From Candidatus Kuenenia stuttgartensis (GTDB lineage: Bacteria; Pseudomonadota; Alphaproteobacteria; SMXS01), in the NCBI GenBank assembly GCA_943329845.2, contig CALQFM020000043.1, forward strand, positions 1 through 35,404: a stretch of 35,404 nt of DNA, written 5' to 3'. Every line of letters begins with the position of its first letter. Position 1 is the first letter of the stretch. The notes under the pieces were generated by a model. The model saw only the letters and a program-made list of their open reading frames with translations, searched no databases and was not told where the DNA came from. Of this stretch, positions 27,874 to 34,722 are shown one piece after another. Both the position numbers and the translations under genes were made by a program.

Positions 27874-29160
27874 TTGCAGAAGAAAATCTGGATCGGCCTG
27901 GCGGCGGTGGTCGCCGTGGTGGCCGGAGCGGCCATTACCGTGGCCGTCTGGCCGCCGGCGACGAAGCTGGTCATGGATGCCTGGCAGGGCGACAGGTTCC
28001 GGGAAGTGCGGCAGGTGATCACCGATCCGCTGGCGACGGACCACTGGAGCAAGGCCCGCGTCGCCGACAAGGGCGTGACCATCTGGGATCCGATCAACGC
28101 CTATCGCGGCTTCACCCTCTACACGTCGGGGGAAGGTCCGGTGGCGCGGCTGGTCACCATGACCGGCGCGCCGGTCCACGAATGGACCATCCCCTACAGC
28201 AAGGTATGGAAGCTCGAGACCGCCGCGGTGCAGGAACCGCAGCCGGACAACCTCGTGTTCCTGCGCCATGCCCGCCTGCAACCGAATGGCGACCTGATCG
28301 CCGTGTTCGAGGCCGCCGGCCATATGCCGGCCGGCTACGGCATCGTGCGGGTGGACAAGGACTCGAAACCGCTTTGGAGCTATCTGCAGCGCGCCCACGG
28401 CGCCTTCGACGTGGCGCCGGACGGCCGTGTGTTCGTGCTGGTCCAGGCGATCCGCGAGGACGACGAGCCGACTTCGATGGTCGAGACGCCGTTCCTCGAG
28501 GATTTCCTGGTGGTGTTGGGTCCGGACGGCAAGGAGACGGCGAAGATTTCGCTGGTCGACGCGCTGGAACGCTCGCGCTTCGCCTCGCTCCTGGGAAAGG
28601 TGCCGGCCGGCGTTCACGACCCACTGGGTGCAACCAGCGTCCAGTATATCGGCGGCGATGCGGTGAAGGGCATCCCGGACAGCGCGGGCGAACGGGTACT
28701 GCTGTCGTTCGGCGGTCTCGACTCGGTCGCGGTAATGGATCTCGCCGGCAAGCAGATCAGCTGGGCCGCGCGCGGCGCGTGGCGGCGCCAGCACGAGGCC
28801 CGGATGCTGCCGGGCGGCGACCTGATGGTGGTCGACGCGCCGGACGAAAACGACGGCAGGGCGCAGCAGATCGACATGTCGAACAGCACGGTGGTCTGGT
28901 CCTTTGGTGGCGGAACCGATCAGCCCTTCGCCAGCACGGCGCGGCTGTCGGCGCAGCGGCTGCCCAACGGCAACACGCTGCTGACCGAGTCCGATGGCGG
29001 GCGACTGGTCGAGGTCGACCAGTCGGGCACTGTCGTCTGGGAATATACCAACCCGGCGCGAGCGGGCCAGGACGGCGCCTACATTCCGGTGATCGCGTCG
29101 GGCCAGCGCATCGAGGCGCGGGCGCTCGACACAAGCTTCCGCGGCTTCACACGACCATAG
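27874..29160 (+). CDS. Arylsulfotransferase (ASST)-family beta-propeller protein
   Basis: The 428-residue protein has an N-terminal membrane anchor or uncleaved signal (about residues 4-25) and repeated propeller strands of the type HARLQPNGDLIAVFE, HGAFDVAPDGRVFVLVQA, QHEARMLPGGDLMVVDAPDE and QRLPNGNTLLTESDGGRLVEVDQSG (given in parts). This is the pattern of the arylsulfate sulfotransferase family, whose active site uses histidines at the propeller centre. Activity is not assured, because the family is broad. The start is TTG at 27874, preceded by GGAAGGGA. The last 14 bp overlap the convergent LLM gene. The 166 bp between the sensor kinase and this gene holds an imperfect hairpin (GCCAT/ATGGC around 27798-27815) and no gene that I can support. 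Confidence 0.82.
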   Translation: MQKKIWIGLAAVVAVVAGAAITVAVWPPATKLVMDAWQGDRFREVRQVITDPLATDHWSKARVADKGVTIWDPINAYRGFTLYTSGEGPVARLVTMTGAPVHEWTIPYSKVWKLETAAVQEPQPDNLVFLRHARLQPNGDLIAVFEAAGHMPAGYGIVRVDKDSKPLWSYLQRAHGAFDVAPDGRVFVLVQAIREDDEPTSMVETPFLEDFLVVLGPDGKETAKISLVDALERSRFASLLGKVPAGVHDPLGATSVQYIGGDAVKGIPDSAGERVLLSFGGLDSVAVMDLAGKQISWAARGAWRRQHEARMLPGGDLMVVDAPDENDGRAQQIDMSNSTVVWSFGGGTDQPFASTARLSAQRLPNGNTLLTESDGGRLVEVDQSGTVVWEYTNPARAGQDGAYIPVIASGQRIEARALDTSFRGFTRP

Positions 29161-30028
29161 GCGCGGTCTGTCCCGCCTCGATGCGGTGGCGTACTTCCGA
29201 CAGGAAATCGATGTGCGCCTGAGCCGTGGTGAACCCCTTGCCCATGGGATTGACCGACGCGTGCGTGCCGCCGAGGTCCTGCCAGCGTTTCACGGTGTCG
29301 ACGGTTTCCTGGAGGTTGGTGGCGCGGATGGTGATCAGCTCGCGGCCAAAGCCCTTCTCGTCCCGGCCGGACTCCCGCAAATAGTGGCGGACCCGCTCCC
29401 ATCCCTGGGTCGCGTGGTCGATATCTCCGGCGAAGATGTAGCCGTCGCCCAGGCGGCCGCCACGGCGGAAAGCCGGCTCGGTGAATCCGCCGACCCAGAT
29501 CGGGATCTGGCGCTTGGGCCTGGGGAGGATGTTGCCCTTGTCGAGCCGGTCGAACCTGCCCTCGAAGCTCATGACGTGCTCGGACCACAGCCGGCGCAGG
29601 AACGGAATCTGCTCGTCGGCGCGGGCGCCGCGGCTTTCGAAATCCTGCCCCAGCGCATGGTATTCGACATAATTCCAGCCGGTGCCGATGCCGAGGCGCA
29701 GCCGCTGATGCGACAGCAGATCCACATCGGCGGCCTGCTGGGCGACCAGCACGGTCTGGCGCTGCGGCAGGATCAGCACGCCGGTGACCAGTTCGAGCCG
29801 GTGGGTGATGCCCGCCCAGTAGCCGAACATCACGAACGGATCGTGGAACGGATGGTTTTCGGTATAGGGTCCCCACAGCTTGGGCTCGCGGTCATGCGAC
29901 GCGCCGACCACGTGGTCGAACACCAGGATGTGGTCGTAGCCCAATTTCTCGACGGCGAGGCCGATGTCGTGGACGGCCTGCGGATCGCCCTTCAGTTCGG
30001 TTTGCGGATAGACGGCGCCCAGCTTCAT
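29147..30028 (-). CDS. LLM-class flavin-dependent oxidoreductase
   Basis: This 293-residue enzyme has the luciferase-like TIM-barrel fold. It contains MKLGAVYPQTELKGDPQAV, AVEKLGYDHILVFDHVVG, the catalytic-face segment RLELVTGVLILPQRQTVLVA, HQRLRLGIGTGWNYVEY and IPIWVGGFTEPAFRRGGRLG, all typical of the TIGR03619-type LLM proteins. The ATG at 30028 shares one base with the stop of the upstream NTF2-like gene (TGATG), so the two are coupled. The substrate is unknown; the pairing with a SnoaL-like protein is common in catabolic clusters. Its 3' end overlaps the ASST gene by 14 bp, tail to tail. Confidence 0.92.
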   Translation of the reverse strand: MKLGAVYPQTELKGDPQAVHDIGLAVEKLGYDHILVFDHVVGASHDREPKLWGPYTENHPFHDPFVMFGYWAGITHRLELVTGVLILPQRQTVLVAQQAADVDLLSHQRLRLGIGTGWNYVEYHALGQDFESRGARADEQIPFLRRLWSEHVMSFEGRFDRLDKGNILPRPKRQIPIWVGGFTEPAFRRGGRLGDGYIFAGDIDHATQGWERVRHYLRESGRDEKGFGRELITIRATNLQETVDTVKRWQDLGGTHASVNPMGKGFTTAQAHIDFLSEVRHRIEAGQTAPMVV

Positions 30029-30561
30029 CACGCTCTCCCCAGGTTCGGAAGCAAACGGTAGGACAGGTCCGAGGTGTCGCGCCTGCCTGCAAGCGGCTGC
30101 TGACCGGGCGTGCCCGGATGGAGGATACCACCGACGTCGCGGGCGCGCACCGGCACCATGGTGCTCATGTCCGAGACGAATACGCGATCAGCGATACGCC
30201 AGCGGCCGTCGGCCTTGCGCCAGGTGTCGAGGTAGCGACCATGGCCGATCAAGTCGATCAGCTCGTCCTGGGGCTGCATGCGCAGGGTGACCTGCACCAT
30301 GCTCTCGCTGACCGCCGCCATGTCGCCGGTGAAGTCGACCAGCATGTTGCAGACCCGATGGGTGTGGCAGACCATGGCCGCATGCACCGGCCACAGCCAT
30401 TCGACGAAGCCGGCGGGCGAGCCGTTGAAGAGGCCGCTGTATTCCAGCTTGGCGTCGGGCCAGAAGCAGTCGAGCGCCAGCGGCGCGTCCATGCGGTCCA
30501 TCGACTGGCAATAGCGGTAGAGCGTCTCGTGGATTTCCAGCTTGTCTTCGATGCCGGGCAT
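30028..30561 (-). CDS. NTF2-like/SnoaL-like family protein
   Basis: The 177-residue protein is of the nuclear-transport-factor-2-like superfamily (SnoaL_4 type), a cone-shaped fold found in dehydratases, isomerases and small ring-modifying enzymes. Typical segments are DKLEIHETLYRYCQSMDRMD, ALDCFWPDAKLEYSG, HRVCNMLVDFTGDMAAVSES and GRYLDTWRKADGRWRIADRV. The Tyr, Asp and His residues of these segments occupy the usual pocket positions. It precedes and is coupled to the LLM oxidoreductase gene. The specific reaction cannot be assigned. The 83 bp upstream, before the nrsF stop, shows nothing else. Confidence 0.87.
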   Translation of the reverse strand: MPGIEDKLEIHETLYRYCQSMDRMDAPLALDCFWPDAKLEYSGLFNGSPAGFVEWLWPVHAAMVCHTHRVCNMLVDFTGDMAAVSESMVQVTLRMQPQDELIDLIGHGRYLDTWRKADGRWRIADRVFVSDMSTMVPVRARDVGGILHPGTPGQQPLAGRRDTSDLSYRLLPNLGRA

Positions 30562-30644: not shown

Positions 30645-31280
30645 CTAGCGCCGCAGCAGCCGGCGGCCGGAAGCGGCCAGCACGGCGGTGACAATGGCGA
30701 CAGCCAGGGCATGGAAAGCGAGATCGGTCGCCGCTGCGTCCGCGGGATGGAAGAGGCTGAGCACGGTGGCCGACGCGGCGGCGCAGGCGAGGCCGGCGAC
30801 CAAGGCGGTCAGCGCCGGATAGAGCGGAAATGCCCGGCGCAGCATGACGACCATGGCAACAGCGAGCGGCGCCGAGATGCCGACGATGGACATCAGACAT
30901 TCCGAATGGATGTGGCCATCCCAGCCCACCGTGGCCCAGGTGCGCAGGCAGCCCATGCCGCTCGCCCCGATCCACAACAGCAAGCCGGGCAGCGGCAACA
31001 ATGCCCACAGCCGCGACCGCCCCGGCATCGCCAGCTCGAACGCGGCCTTGGCGGCGAAGGCCGCGGTGAGCAGGGAGCCCAGCACGGCAAGCCACATGTC
31101 GGCGGCCGAGCCTAGCCTCGCCATGGCGGCACGCATGTCGAAAACGACGGCGAGGCCGGCCGCGATCAACACGGAGCAGCCTAGCCAAAGGAGCGCGAGG
31201 CGGTTGGGCTCCGCGATGCGGCGCACCGGCGTCAGGCCGTCGCCCAGTTCGCGGATCAGGTTGTCGGTGGAGCGTGCCAT
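30645..31280 (-). CDS. nrsF: NrsF-type (DUF1109) membrane anti-sigma factor
   Basis: The 211-residue protein has six hydrophobic segments (about 28-47, 62-83, 92-108, 131-149, 153-176 and 186-205) and the N-terminal TDNLIRELGDGLTPVRR of the NrsF/DUF1109 family. NrsF proteins hold an ECF sigma factor of the SigF type at the membrane until heavy-metal or oxidative stress. Family proteins carry two functional cysteines; here C128 (HSECLM) is in place, C111 lies nearby, but the position where I would expect the second one reads LFHPADA without cysteine. It shares one base with the sigma factor stop (TGATG). Function is inferred from family and context. Confidence 0.88.
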   Translation of the reverse strand: MARSTDNLIRELGDGLTPVRRIAEPNRLALLWLGCSVLIAAGLAVVFDMRAAMARLGSAADMWLAVLGSLLTAAFAAKAAFELAMPGRSRLWALLPLPGLLLWIGASGMGCLRTWATVGWDGHIHSECLMSIVGISAPLAVAMVVMLRRAFPLYPALTALVAGLACAAASATVLSLFHPADAAATDLAFHALAVAIVTAVLAASGRRLLRR

Positions 31281-31840
31281 CAGCCCTCCTCCCCTGTCAG
31301 CCGGGCACGCAGAGTCTTCAGCGCCCGGTGCAGGTTGACCTTGAGCGCGCCCGTCGACCGCCCCGTGACCTGCGACGCCTCGGCCAGTGACCGGTCGTTC
31401 AGGGTGAGTTCCTCGACAGCCTGGCGCTGGCCTTCCGGCAGCGACTCGACGGCGCGGCGCAGGCCACCGTCGAGGCCGGCGGCCACGGGCTCGCCGGTCG
31501 CGGCGGGATGTGTCTCGTAGGCGATATCATCATGTACCTCCCGCGACCGCTGGCGGCCCTGGCGGCGCAGCAGGTCTACGGCCCGGCGGTCGGCGATGGT
31601 GCGCAGCCACGCCTGGAACGAGCGGGCCGGATCGTAGGTGTGCCGCGCCCGGTGGACGGTCAGCAGGGTTTCCTGGACGGCGTCGTCGACGGCGTCCGCT
31701 GGCACGCCGCGCCGGCGCGCTGCGGCACGGATGAACGGGACGCAGTCGCGCAGCAGCGCATCATAGGCGGCGCGGTCGCCGGCCTGCGCCGACGCCATCA
31801 GCCCGCCGAGGCGGCGATCGGTCTGGTCCCGTGTGTCCAC
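31280..31840 (-). CDS. sigF: ECF RNA polymerase sigma factor, SigF-like
   Basis: This sigma-70 family ECF factor has about 186 residues. Region 2 covers AYDALLRDCVPFIRAAARRR to DDAVQETLLTVHRARHTYDP with FQAWLRTIADRRAVDLLRRQ. Region 4 covers RRAVESLPEGQRQAVEELTL through GRSTGALKVNLHRALKTLRA, which contains the DNA-contacting helix-turn-helix. The start is uncertain: GTG at 31840 fits family length, whereas ATG at 31900 would add 20 residues with poorer coding character. It is coupled to the anti-sigma gene downstream. No promoter of its own is evident; it follows the molybdoprotein stop by 79 bp, so it may be read from the SigF-type promoter at 33352-33377. Confidence 0.9.
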   Translation of the reverse strand: MDTRDQTDRRLGGLMASAQAGDRAAYDALLRDCVPFIRAAARRRGVPADAVDDAVQETLLTVHRARHTYDPARSFQAWLRTIADRRAVDLLRRQGRQRSREVHDDIAYETHPAATGEPVAAGLDGGLRRAVESLPEGQRQAVEELTLNDRSLAEASQVTGRSTGALKVNLHRALKTLRARLTGEEG

Positions 31841-31919: not shown

Positions 31920-32678
31920 TCAGGAGCCGCTGAACCAGTTGTAGCCCTTGTCCTCCCAATAGCCGCCCGGATTGTCGTTGGTGACAAACAGGGCGGCGAT
32001 GTGCTTGGGGTTCTTGAAGCCCAGCTTGGTCGGCACCCGCAGCTTCATGGGGTAGCCGTATTTGCGCGGCAGCGGATCGTCGCCGAAATCCAGCGCCAGG
32101 ATGGTCTGCGGGTGGCGCGCGGTCGCCATGTCGATGCTGGAGTAGTAGCCGTCGGCGCATTTGAAGCCCACATAGCGCGCCCGCCGGTCGGCGCCGATTC
32201 GGTCGAGGAAGGTGCCGAATCGCACACCCGACCATTCGCCGACGGCGCTCCAGCCCTCGACGCAGATATGCCGGGTGATCTGGCTTTCCTGCGGCAGCGC
32301 GCGCAGGTCCTCGATGGCCCACATCCTCTTGTCGGCGACCAGTCCCGAGACCTCCAGCTTGTAGGTGGCGCCGTCGACGACGGGCGCGCGGGCCTCGCGG
32401 TAGAATGCGTTGAACGGGAACGGCGTGGTGATATCGGCCTTCGTGTAGGTCTGGGCCAGCTTGTTCGGGTCGAACAGCCAGGCCTGCGCCTTGTCGTTCC
32501 AGCGCGACATGGCCATCAGTGCCTTGTCGACCGCATTGCCTTCGACCAGGTTGCAGCCGGTAAGCATGGTGAGCGCGCCCAGGGACAGGCTGCCGCGCAG
32601 GAACAGGCGGCGTTCCAGGTCGACCAATTCGGGCTTGAGGTCGTCGAGGGACGGCCGTGGCGGCCTGATCAGGCTCAT
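31920..32678 (-). CDS. Exported sulfite-oxidase-fold molybdopterin oxidoreductase
   Basis: The 252-residue protein has an N-terminal Tat motif RRLFLRG (23-29) and hydrophobic stretch, ending in LTGC (39-42), which also fits a lipoprotein signal. The catalytic domain is of the sulfite oxidase/MsrP (YedY) type, with the molybdenum-ligand cysteine C139 in TRHICVEGWSAVGEWSGV and the segments CADGYYSSIDMATARHPQTI and RKYGYPMKLRVPTKLGFKNP. It is shorter than E. coli MsrP (334) and pairs with a b561-type rather than YedZ-type membrane partner. A role in reducing oxidised methionine or a related S-oxide is inferred from context. It overlaps the cytochrome gene by 4 bp (ATGA). Confidence 0.88.
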   Translation of the reverse strand: MSLIRPPRPSLDDLKPELVDLERRLFLRGSLSLGALTMLTGCNLVEGNAVDKALMAMSRWNDKAQAWLFDPNKLAQTYTKADITTPFPFNAFYREARAPVVDGATYKLEVSGLVADKRMWAIEDLRALPQESQITRHICVEGWSAVGEWSGVRFGTFLDRIGADRRARYVGFKCADGYYSSIDMATARHPQTILALDFGDDPLPRKYGYPMKLRVPTKLGFKNPKHIAALFVTNDNPGGYWEDKGYNWFSGS

Positions 32679-33316
32679 GGTGTTACCTCCGCGTCCTCGA
32701 CCGTGCCGCCGATAATCATGGGTGGCAGGGTTTTCGGGACGATCATGACGAGCAGGATGTGGACGATGAAGAACCCGACGATGCCCGCCATGGCGAGGAA
32801 GTGGACGACGCGGGCGCTGTCGAACCCGCCCATCAGCCAGGCCAGCGTCTGGAACTGCACCGGCTTCCAGACGGAAAGGCCCGACGCGACGGCCAGGATG
32901 ATCAGCAGGATCACGCCCGCATAGAGCAGCCGCTGCACCGCGTTGTAGTGGCCCAGCGCGTGCGGCAGCCGGAAGGCGAGCGCGGCTTTCACGTCGTGCC
33001 AGACGCCCGCCGGCGTGATCGGCAGCAGATCGCGTCGGAAATGGCCCGAGAACAGGCCATAGGCGAGATAGAACAGCAGATTGACGACCAGCACCCACAT
33101 GGCCGCGAAATGCCAGGCGATGGCGCCGCCCAGCCAGCCGCCCAGGGTGATCGTGTAAGGGAACTTGAAGGGGAATATCGGCGAGGCATTATATATCTGC
33201 CAGCCGCTCATGACCATGACGACCATCGCCGCCGCGTTGATCCAATGGGTCAGCCGGACGATAGAAGGATGGATGGCGCGCCGCTTTCGCGATGTGGAAC
33301 TGGCGTCATTGGACAT
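32675..33316 (-). CDS. Cytochrome b561-like membrane electron-transfer subunit
   Basis: The 213-residue di-heme b-type cytochrome has four membrane helices (about 25-42, 65-88, 130-148 and 172-194). Candidate heme ligands are H24, H69, H172 and H186, lying at helix ends as in the Ni,Fe-hydrogenase/formate dehydrogenase cytochrome b family. It should carry electrons from the quinone pool to the exported molybdoprotein encoded next (ATGA overlap). The ATG at 33316 lies 35 bp after a SigF-type promoter element at 33352-33377. It is the first gene of the leftward operon. Confidence 0.9.
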   Translation of the reverse strand: MSNDASSTSRKRRAIHPSIVRLTHWINAAAMVVMVMSGWQIYNASPIFPFKFPYTITLGGWLGGAIAWHFAAMWVLVVNLLFYLAYGLFSGHFRRDLLPITPAGVWHDVKAALAFRLPHALGHYNAVQRLLYAGVILLIILAVASGLSVWKPVQFQTLAWLMGGFDSARVVHFLAMAGIVGFFIVHILLVMIVPKTLPPMIIGGTVEDAEVTP

Positions 33317-33351
33317 GCGGCTTCCCCGATGCAGGACCGTATGAGGACTTA

Positions 33352-33377
33352 TTCGCCGGACGCGACCGGCGGGTTAC
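33352..33377 (-). promoter_or_regulatory. SigF-type ECF promoter for the cytochrome b561/molybdoprotein operon
   Basis: On the minus strand, GTAACC (forward GGTTAC, 33372-33377) is followed after exactly 16 bp by CGAA (forward TTCG, 33352-33355). This is the same bipartite element as the one at 33424-33449 facing the other way. It lies 35 bp upstream of the cytochrome start codon. From memory it matches the SigF consensus of Caulobacter, and an SigF/NrsF-like pair is encoded in the operon it controls. Confidence 0.78.
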
Positions 33378-33423
33378 ATCATGTCACGGATTTTTCCACC
33401 GGGTACCGAATAGGCGGCGACCT

Positions 33424-33449
33424 GTAACCTTGAGGCCCCCTCCGCCGAA
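33424..33449 (+). promoter_or_regulatory. SigF-type ECF promoter for msrA-msrB
   Basis: GTAACC (33424-33429) is followed after exactly 16 bp by CGAA (33446-33449), 48 bp upstream of the msrA ATG. The spacer sequence differs from that of the divergent copy at 33352-33377, so only the two boxes are conserved, as expected of a promoter. The two -35 boxes are back to back with 46 bp between them. Confidence 0.78.
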
Positions 33450-33497
33450 TGAGCCGGAGAAGGCCGCGTTCCACCCGCCGGCCGCAGGAGAGACTAC

Positions 33498-34211
33498 ATG
33501 AACCGTTCCATTCACCGCCTTTCCCGTTTCGTGTCCAGTACGCTGGGCGCCGCCGCGCTGGCCGTAGCCACGCTTCTGGTCTTGCCGGCCGGGGCCGCCG
33601 AGAAGGCCGTCGCCATCCCGGCGCCCGCGCTCGATACGCCGTCCACCGCACCGTCGGAAACCGCGATCCTCGCGGGTGGCTGCTTCTGGGGCGTGCAGGG
33701 CGTTTTCCAGCACACCAAGGGCGTGACCAGTGCCGTCTCCGGCTACGCGGGCGGTACGACCAAGTCGCCCAGCTACCACCAGGTTGGCTCGGGCGAGACC
33801 GGCCACGCCGAAGCCGTGAAAGTGACCTTCGACCCCAGGCAGGTGACCTACGGCCAGATCCTGCGCATCTACTTCTCCGTTGCCCATGACCCGACCCAGC
33901 TCAACCGCCAGAGACCGGACCGGGGCACCCAGTACCGCTCGGCCATCTTCACCACCAGCGACAGCCATATGAAGGTGGCGACCGCCTATATCGCCCAGCT
34001 CGATGGAGCCAAGGCCTATCCGAAGCCGATCGTCACCAAGGTGCAGCCCGCCGCGAAGTTCTGGCCGGCCGAGGATTATCACCAGGACTACGCCACGCTG
34101 CATCCTGACGACACCTACATCGCCTTCTATGATCTGCCCAAGATCGCCAACCTGAAGGTGATGTTCCCGTCCCACTACCGCGACCAGCCCGTGCTGGTCG
34201 CCGCCCGGTAG
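33498..34211 (+). CDS. msrA: Secreted peptide methionine-(S)-S-oxide reductase
   Basis: MsrA reduces the S-epimer of methionine sulfoxide. The 237-residue protein has a Sec-type signal peptide (basic start, hydrophobic about 15-33, AGAAEK near the cleavage site) and the catalytic motif GGCFWGVQGVF with nucleophile C62. Other family segments are SGYAGGTTKSPSYHQVGSG, GHAEAVKVTFDP, RGTQYRSAIF and AEDYHQDY. C62 is the only cysteine in the whole protein, so no resolving cysteine is available. The start follows an AGGAGA site. msrB follows 10 bp downstream. A SigF-type promoter lies upstream. Confidence 0.96.
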   Translation: MNRSIHRLSRFVSSTLGAAALAVATLLVLPAGAAEKAVAIPAPALDTPSTAPSETAILAGGCFWGVQGVFQHTKGVTSAVSGYAGGTTKSPSYHQVGSGETGHAEAVKVTFDPRQVTYGQILRIYFSVAHDPTQLNRQRPDRGTQYRSAIFTTSDSHMKVATAYIAQLDGAKAYPKPIVTKVQPAAKFWPAEDYHQDYATLHPDDTYIAFYDLPKIANLKVMFPSHYRDQPVLVAAR

Positions 34212-34221
34212 GAGCACGACC

Positions 34222-34722
34222 ATGCATACCAGACGATCCGTGCTGCTCGGCGGCGCCGGCCTTCTCGCCCTGTTTGGGATGGTAGGCGCTGCGCAATCGG
34301 GTACCAAGGCGAAGAAAGAGGCTGAGGTGTTCGAGGTCACGAAGACCGACGCCGAATGGCGCGCGCTCCTCAAGCCTGACGCCTATCAAGTGCTGCGGCA
34401 CGAGGACACTGAACGGCCCTACACAAGCCCGCTCAACCATGAGAAACGGGCCGGCACCTTCTACTGTGCCGGGTGCGACCTGCCCCTGTTCTCGTCGCAG
34501 ACCAAGTTCGACAGCGGCACCGGCTGGCCCAGCTTCTGGAAGCCCCTGGACAACGCGGTGCGCACCCGGAAAGACTATTCCGGCGGCTGGGTGCGGGACG
34601 AAGTGCACTGCCGCCGCTGCGGCGGGCATCTGGGCCATGTGTTCGACGACGGCCCCAGGCCGACCGGCCTGCGCTATTGCATGAACGGTCTGTCGCTGAC
34701 CTTCCGGCCCTCGAACGCGTAG
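34222..34722 (+). CDS. msrB: Secreted peptide methionine-(R)-S-oxide reductase
   Basis: MsrB reduces the R-epimer of methionine sulfoxide. The 166-residue protein has a Tat-like signal (TRRSVLLGG, residues 3-11, hydrophobic to about 24), structural zinc ligands C82, C85, C130 and C133, and catalytic C153 in RYCMNGLSLTF. The usual resolving cysteine of the FDSGCGWPSF motif is threonine here (T100 in FDSGTGWPSF), so this is a 1-Cys type enzyme. A GGAG overlapping the msrA stop serves as ribosome site. It is the second gene of the msrAB operon. Confidence 0.96.
   Translation: MHTRRSVLLGGAGLLALFGMVGAAQSGTKAKKEAEVFEVTKTDAEWRALLKPDAYQVLRHEDTERPYTSPLNHEKRAGTFYCAGCDLPLFSSQTKFDSGTGWPSFWKPLDNAVRTRKDYSGGWVRDEVHCRRCGGHLGHVFDDGPRPTGLRYCMNGLSLTFRPSNA

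Follow-up and report, generated by a model that had tools for sequence, protein, structure and literature searches.

The 181-bp interval at 33317-33497 of the window (the whole stretch of 35,404 nt analysed here) spans precisely the distance between the start codons of two divergent genes, a cytochrome b561 gene and msrA. It raises the question of whether one sigma factor reads promoters in both directions from this region and thereby turns on two complementary S-oxide repair routes, as an initial annotation had proposed.

Gene content and promoters of the divergent region

The genes flanking the region were those that had been claimed, each supported by Pfam. On the minus strand, a cytochrome b561-type membrane subunit of 213 aa (32675..33316; PF01292, 77.8 bits) was followed by a YedY-like molybdopterin oxidoreductase of 252 aa (31920..32678; PF00174, 103 bits), for which the nearest solved structure was 1xdq and whose start codon overlapped the b561 stop (ATGA). 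The N-terminus of this molybdoprotein (RRLFLRGS...LTGC) resembled a Tat lipoprotein signal, and the Mo-ligand motif was RHICVEGWS. The same run encoded an ECF sigma factor (SigF/ECF16-like, about 186 aa; 31280..31840, with a proposed GTG start; Sigma70_r2 and Sigma70_r4_2) and an NrsF anti-sigma factor (211 aa; 30645..31280; PF06532, 84 bits; six predicted TM helices), with the sigF stop codon overlapping the nrsF ATG.

On the plus strand, MsrA (237 aa; 33498..34211; PF01625, 201 bits; TIGR00401 above cut-off) and MsrB (166 aa; 34222..34722; PF01641, 161 bits; TIGR00357 above cut-off) were encoded. MsrA had an apparent Sec signal and MsrB a Tat-like signal (TRRSVLLGG); exported location was assigned throughout from N-terminal signals read by eye. 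The only cysteine of MsrA was the catalytic C62 in GGCFWG, and MsrB contained four cysteines as two CxxC pairs plus C153, taken as catalytic. A second MsrA was encoded elsewhere in the genome of the window.

The leftward run extended past nrsF. A SnoaL-like protein (30028..30561; PF13577) was encoded 83 nt after nrsF, and the next gene, for an LLM-class (luciferase-like) monooxygenase (29147..30031; PF00296; TIGR03619 above cut-off), overlapped it by 4 nt, both on the minus strand. The order nrsF-SnoaL-LLM was kept in G001, G002, G003, G005 and G006, that is, in every congener with sigF-nrsF, and the two genes probably form the tail of the leftward operon. An arylsulfotransferase-like protein (PF14269) was encoded on the plus strand at 27874-29160, convergent with the LLM gene.

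GTAACC-N16-CGAA was found twice within the divergent region, with identical 16-bp spacing and at the positions and on the strands originally reported; the window held no third copy. The leftward promoter (GTAACCCGCCGGTCGCGTCCGGCGAA; minus strand, 33352-33377) consisted of a -35 box GTAACC at 33377-33372 and a -10 box CGAA at 33355-33352, and the rightward one (GTAACCTTGAGGCCCCCTCCGCCGAA; plus strand, 33424-33449) of GTAACC at 33424-33429 and CGAA at 33446-33449. Both matched the longer form TGTAACC-N16-CGAAT. The boxes faced outward with 46 bp between them, and the distance from CGAA to the ATG was 35 nt for b561 and 48 nt for msrA. The leftward promoter would drive b561-molybdoprotein-sigF-nrsF, probably with SnoaL-LLM, and the rightward promoter the exported msrA-msrB. 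Since the leftward operon includes sigF-nrsF, we propose that SigF amplifies its own synthesis together with that of its inhibitor.

Taken as a whole, the divergent region probably comprises two ECF16 promoters that would drive an autoregulated molybdoenzyme-sigF-nrsF operon and the exported msrA-msrB under the gate of NrsF, with a DUF1223 gene as a further target. The two exported enzyme sets under the paired promoters probably act beyond the cytoplasm to repair oxidised methionine.

Molybdoenzyme function and related systems

Systems of this kind, in which SigF/NrsF is associated with YedYZ, MrpX and exported MsrA/MsrB, are known from Azospira, perchlorate islands, Brucella and Bradyrhizobium, and the idea that exported MsrA/MsrB and YedYZ are driven together by one ECF16 sigma factor has been published before (PMC4623255, PMC8315932, PMC3420878). 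According to PMC5748585 and PMC4623255, Azospira suillum shares with the window an ECF sigma factor and NrsF over a periplasmic YedY-type molybdoenzyme with a membrane partner (SigF/NrsF-yedY1 yedZ1-mrpX). In that system the methionine-rich sink peptide MrpX is central, whereas no MxKDx peptide (TIGR02953) scored above cut-off anywhere in the genome of the window; the window in turn has exported MsrA/MsrB across the shared divergent region. The perchlorate islands of P. militaris MP and D. hydrogenophilus LT-1, as described in PMC4623255, likewise contain sigF/nrsF, yedYZ and exported msrA and msrB homologs, but differ by mrpX and by the perchlorate-island setting.

Brucella BcrS/AbcS-bcrXQP also combines an ECF16 sigma factor with a DUF1109 anti-sigma factor, but with MsrQ/MsrP-type enzymes and the BcrX peptide (PMC8315932). 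Bradyrhizobium EcfF/OsrA places an ECF16 sigma factor over Msr genes, three in that case; unlike in the window, a molybdoenzyme is not listed and the electron donor is not DUF1223 (PMC3420878). Caulobacter SigF/NrsF has the same promoter, NrsF and a YedY-like target, whereas its msrA homologs are SigF-independent (PMC3511200).

The initial annotation had treated the molybdoprotein as an S-oxide reductase, a role that did not stand as an assignment. Its score against the MsrP (YedY) equivalog model NF003767 of NCBIfam was 84.4 bits, below the cut-off of 207, and its membrane partner belonged to the PF01292 cytochrome b561 family and not to the ferric-reductase-like MsrQ, so that neither an MsrP equivalog nor an MsrPQ system was accepted. 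It is reasonable to suppose by analogy that the molybdoprotein and b561 work like MsrPQ, but not that they are MsrPQ. The membrane-anchored molybdoenzyme would receive electrons from the quinone pool via b561.

In another view of the locus, SigF controls it but mainly for sulfur or sulfite metabolism or for metal stress, with a sulfite dehydrogenase-like molybdoprotein and MsrAB as one output among others. The SigF regulon of Caulobacter responds to Cr/Cd and not to ROS, and the YedY-like protein among its targets was interpreted as a sulfite oxidase (PMC3511200); DUF2282 targets were present in congeners, and SorA/SoxC models matched the molybdoprotein, albeit weakly. We nevertheless regard this alternative as unlikely. 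The best NCBIfam match of the molybdoprotein was MsrP rather than SorA/SorT, and in each of the five congeneric species with b561-molybdoprotein genes, exported MsrA and MsrB were divergent from them. In addition, an MxKDx-type methionine-rich ORF was present in 52 of the 80 best b561-molybdoprotein loci found among relatives, in 50 of them no more than 175 nt from the gene for the molybdoprotein, which ties the enzyme family to MetO chemistry. This combination with an MxKDx gene is the gene set of the hypochlorite-scavenging system (PMC5748585, PMC4623255).

Within the genus, no match to the MxKDx peptide above cut-off was obtained in G001, G002, G003 and G005, nor in G004, which is only 78% complete. 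A search of the window for an mrpX-like gene found none, the Met-rich ORFs there looking antisense or ordinary. In G006 and the outgroup locus L030, a gene for an MxKDx peptide followed nrsF and in both cases had a separate GTAACG-N16-CGAA promoter. Most simply, the lineage would have lost the sink peptide when exported MsrA/MsrB, also found in G006, were already present. SigF-like promoters lay 50-70 nt before genes for exported MxKDx peptides in L021 (6256, minus-strand coordinate), L030 (7190) and L031 (2774), and in L030 and L021 the peptide gene lay immediately 3' of nrsF.

Homologous regulons are induced by HOCl or H2O2 (PMC8315932, PMC3420878). The inducer is not readable from homology, because the Caulobacter regulon answers Cr/Cd and leaves its msrA homologs SigF-independent. 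The proposed signal for the window is an oxidant reaching the periplasm, for which reactive chlorine, or a comparable oxidant of thiols and methionine, is the most likely candidate.

Sigma factor assignment and promoter conservation

The SigF-like ECF factor and NrsF-like anti-sigma factor noted earlier in the leftward run were borne out by Pfam matches above cut-off. The sigma factor contained regions 2 and 4 only and was followed by a DUF1109/NrsF protein whose hydropathy fits six helices, the sole NrsF encoded in the genome. Among the NCBIfam sigma models shown, the general sigma70-ECF superfamily model passed its cut-off and no sigma equivalog did; the name SigF is used here on the basis of gene linkage and motif and not of published ECF-group models. 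A tGTAACc-N16-CGAA promoter preceded the sigma operon and its targets. The identity given for the motif was also correct, as GTAACC-N16-CGAA is the published sigma-F promoter of Caulobacter, backed there by 5'RACE and by mutants (PMC3511200). ECF16 promoters of Brucella (PMC8315932) and Bradyrhizobium (PMC3420878) agree with it, and the boxes deduced from 5'RACE for the HOCl-induced Brucella BcrS system are -35 TGTAAC and -10 GCGAA(A/T) (PMC8315932).

Co-regulation of both operons by SigF is very likely, because the boxes are conserved, the motif is a published one and sigF-nrsF lies in the leftward operon. Of the idea that one sigma factor turns on two S-oxide repair routes, the shared control therefore stands at that strength and the targets fit, while S-oxide repair by the molybdoprotein is a presumed activity. 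As the dependence of both promoters on SigF is deduced, they might be genuine promoters that another ECF sigma factor recognises, with sigF-nrsF nearby by coincidence. This is improbable, given the published ECF16 boxes, the single NrsF in the same operon and the arrangement in G003. That congener is without the b561-molybdoprotein-msr block, yet carries the motif immediately upstream of sigF-nrsF-SnoaL-LLM; this assigns the promoter to the sigma gene and makes the leftward operon autoregulated by position.

The locus was compared with its counterparts in four congeners, using genomes that were partly metagenome-assembled. The alignment of the divergent gap in the five species showed two conserved islands: 19 of 20 box positions were invariant, compared with 48 of 161 in the rest of the intergenic gap (Fisher p about 1e-8), and the spacers had changed. 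For the leftward promoter, all 10 box positions were invariant and 12 of 16 spacer positions varied; for the rightward promoter, the corresponding values were 9 of 10 and 14 of 16. There were two exceptions, a GTAACT box in G002 and a spacer in G001 that measured 17 and not 16. As judged from the alignment, this is the pattern expected of two constrained promoters, and not of an inherited repeat.

The layout was also found beyond the genus. Among 60 sigF-nrsF loci taken from the class, 15 had a back-to-back promoter pair within 150 bp (0 with the reversed-pattern control), and the partner gene across the pair was DUF2282 in most and DUF1223 or msrB in others. In Curvibacter, Hylemonella and Polaromonas, the same promoter pair separated sigF-nrsF from b561-molybdoprotein genes, and in L099 it lay between sigF-nrsF and msrA-b561-molybdoprotein. 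On these gene orders, the layout appears to be a recurring arrangement, which in the window has sigF inside the molybdoenzyme operon.

Dinucleotide shuffling gave an expectation of 0.02 copies of GTAACC-N16-CGAA in the window, and none of 100 shuffles contained two. The whole genome contained 7 matches against 2 for the reversed-pattern control, so that a lone copy is weak evidence, which is not the case for the pair. Hence, although single copies do arise by chance, a functionless chance pair has a negligible probability and is already refuted on sequence grounds by the low expectation, the constrained boxes between changed spacers and the recurrence of the arrangement in other families.

Several single matches were set aside. 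Other GTAACC/GTAACN-N16-CGAA matches on contigs C2 and C3 were apparently within coding sequence, and the gene downstream of a match on C80 was unconvincing. A match 26 nt upstream of dapF (C14; L003, L126, L110) had the same letters, including the spacer, in three congeners and was judged probably a chance overlap with the conserved dapF leader.

Proposed wider regulon and NrsF cysteines

The regulon had been described as self-contained, a description that no longer holds. The leftward run itself continues into SnoaL-LLM, and a scan of related genomes for the motif and its downstream genes, as had been suggested, gave DUF1223, DUF2282 and MxKDx peptide genes as targets, the latter two in congeners. 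GTAACN-N16-CGAAW occurred at eight places in the genome of the window, one of them on contig C6 just upstream of a DUF1223 gene (C6:74435-75135; L139, L147). The -35 box of this promoter (TGTAACT-N16-CGAAT) overlapped the stop codon with which the gene before it ends. A single-locus observation thus becomes a candidate regulon spanning contigs.

DUF1223 was encoded in 4 of the 7 genus genomes, including that of the window, with the promoter upstream in all four and spacers changed. DUF2282 (bufferin-type), a known Caulobacter sigma-F target (PMC3511200), occurred in three, with the promoter upstream in all three, and was absent from the genome of the window in the search of the seven genomes. 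The pattern found upstream of all these DUF1223 and DUF2282 genes was GTAACY-N16-CGAA. Outside the genus, in an unrelated family (L183), DUF1223 and sigF-nrsF flanked a back-to-back pair, an arrangement that points to an independent DUF1223-SigF link.

DUF1223 has a thioredoxin fold (structure 2axo; PMC3091736), and the protein of the window's genome had an N-terminal signal and a CSSC motif. With a single cysteine in the exported MsrA, and one in MsrB besides its two CxxC pairs, both enzymes depend on an external reductant, and the DUF1223 protein may feed electrons to them. A similar electron path has been proposed in Bradyrhizobium, where EcfF co-regulates the membrane-anchored periplasmic thioredoxin Bll1026 and the DsbD-like Bll1027 with an Msr enzyme as its proposed donors (PMC3420878). 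One DsbD-type candidate was found in the genome of the window.

The NrsF proteins described previously share a cysteine pair, C131/C181 in Caulobacter (PMC3511200) and C129/C179 in Brucella AbcS (PMC8315932) and Bradyrhizobium OsrA (PMC3420878), and OsrA requires C179 to respond to H2O2 (PMC3420878). The NrsF of the window differs from these in having C128 at the first position, H178 at the position of Caulobacter C181 and an extra cysteine, C111. With H178 instead of the second cysteine, it cannot act through the C131/C181 pair; it was not accepted as that type (two periplasmic cysteines, 50 residues apart) and represents another subtype of the NrsF family.

Among 74 NrsF proteins (that of the window and 73 others), the first conserved cysteine was invariant. 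The second position was Cys in 38, none of which had Cys at window position 111, and His in 31, of which 29 had Cys111; the remaining 5 had Glu or Asp. With the second cysteine elsewhere in about four of ten sampled proteins, the "sensor" cysteine pair of ECF16 anti-sigma factors is not universal, and models based on C131/C181 cannot cover the family. In a tree built without the typed columns, the His-type proteins formed essentially one clade. Repeated independent C-to-H exchange, or covariation of C111 and C178, was therefore rejected, and the mutual exclusion of the two reflects a single ancient change kept by descent. Hydropathy, from which the topology was inferred, placed positions 111 and 128 at either end of one periplasmic loop and 178 in another, making C111/C128 the obvious candidate for the sensing pair.

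In the resting state, NrsF, an anti-sigma factor with six membrane helices, would hold SigF. The periplasmic oxidant would alter C111/C128 and free SigF, which would then induce three exported protein sets, namely the molybdoenzyme, MsrA with MsrB, and the DUF1223 protein encoded on the other contig. This lineage appears to have lost the sacrificial MxKDx peptide, shifted a sensor cysteine and gained a thioredoxin-like DUF1223 gene. We put forward only tentatively, as a rather doubtful extension, that these changes amount to a re-wired clade version of the system, in which NrsF, with His in the former position, senses through the relocated C111/C128 pair in one loop, the MxKDx peptide has been abandoned and SigF-controlled DUF1223 feeds the exported one-cysteine MsrA and MsrB. 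If so, this would be the first role for the uncharacterised DUF1223 family; a function is thereby suggested for a secreted thioredoxin-fold family with a crystal structure that is listed as of unknown function. In one species (G002, contig C1; L107), an exported redoxin-like gene had GTAACT-N16-CGAA 92 nt upstream.
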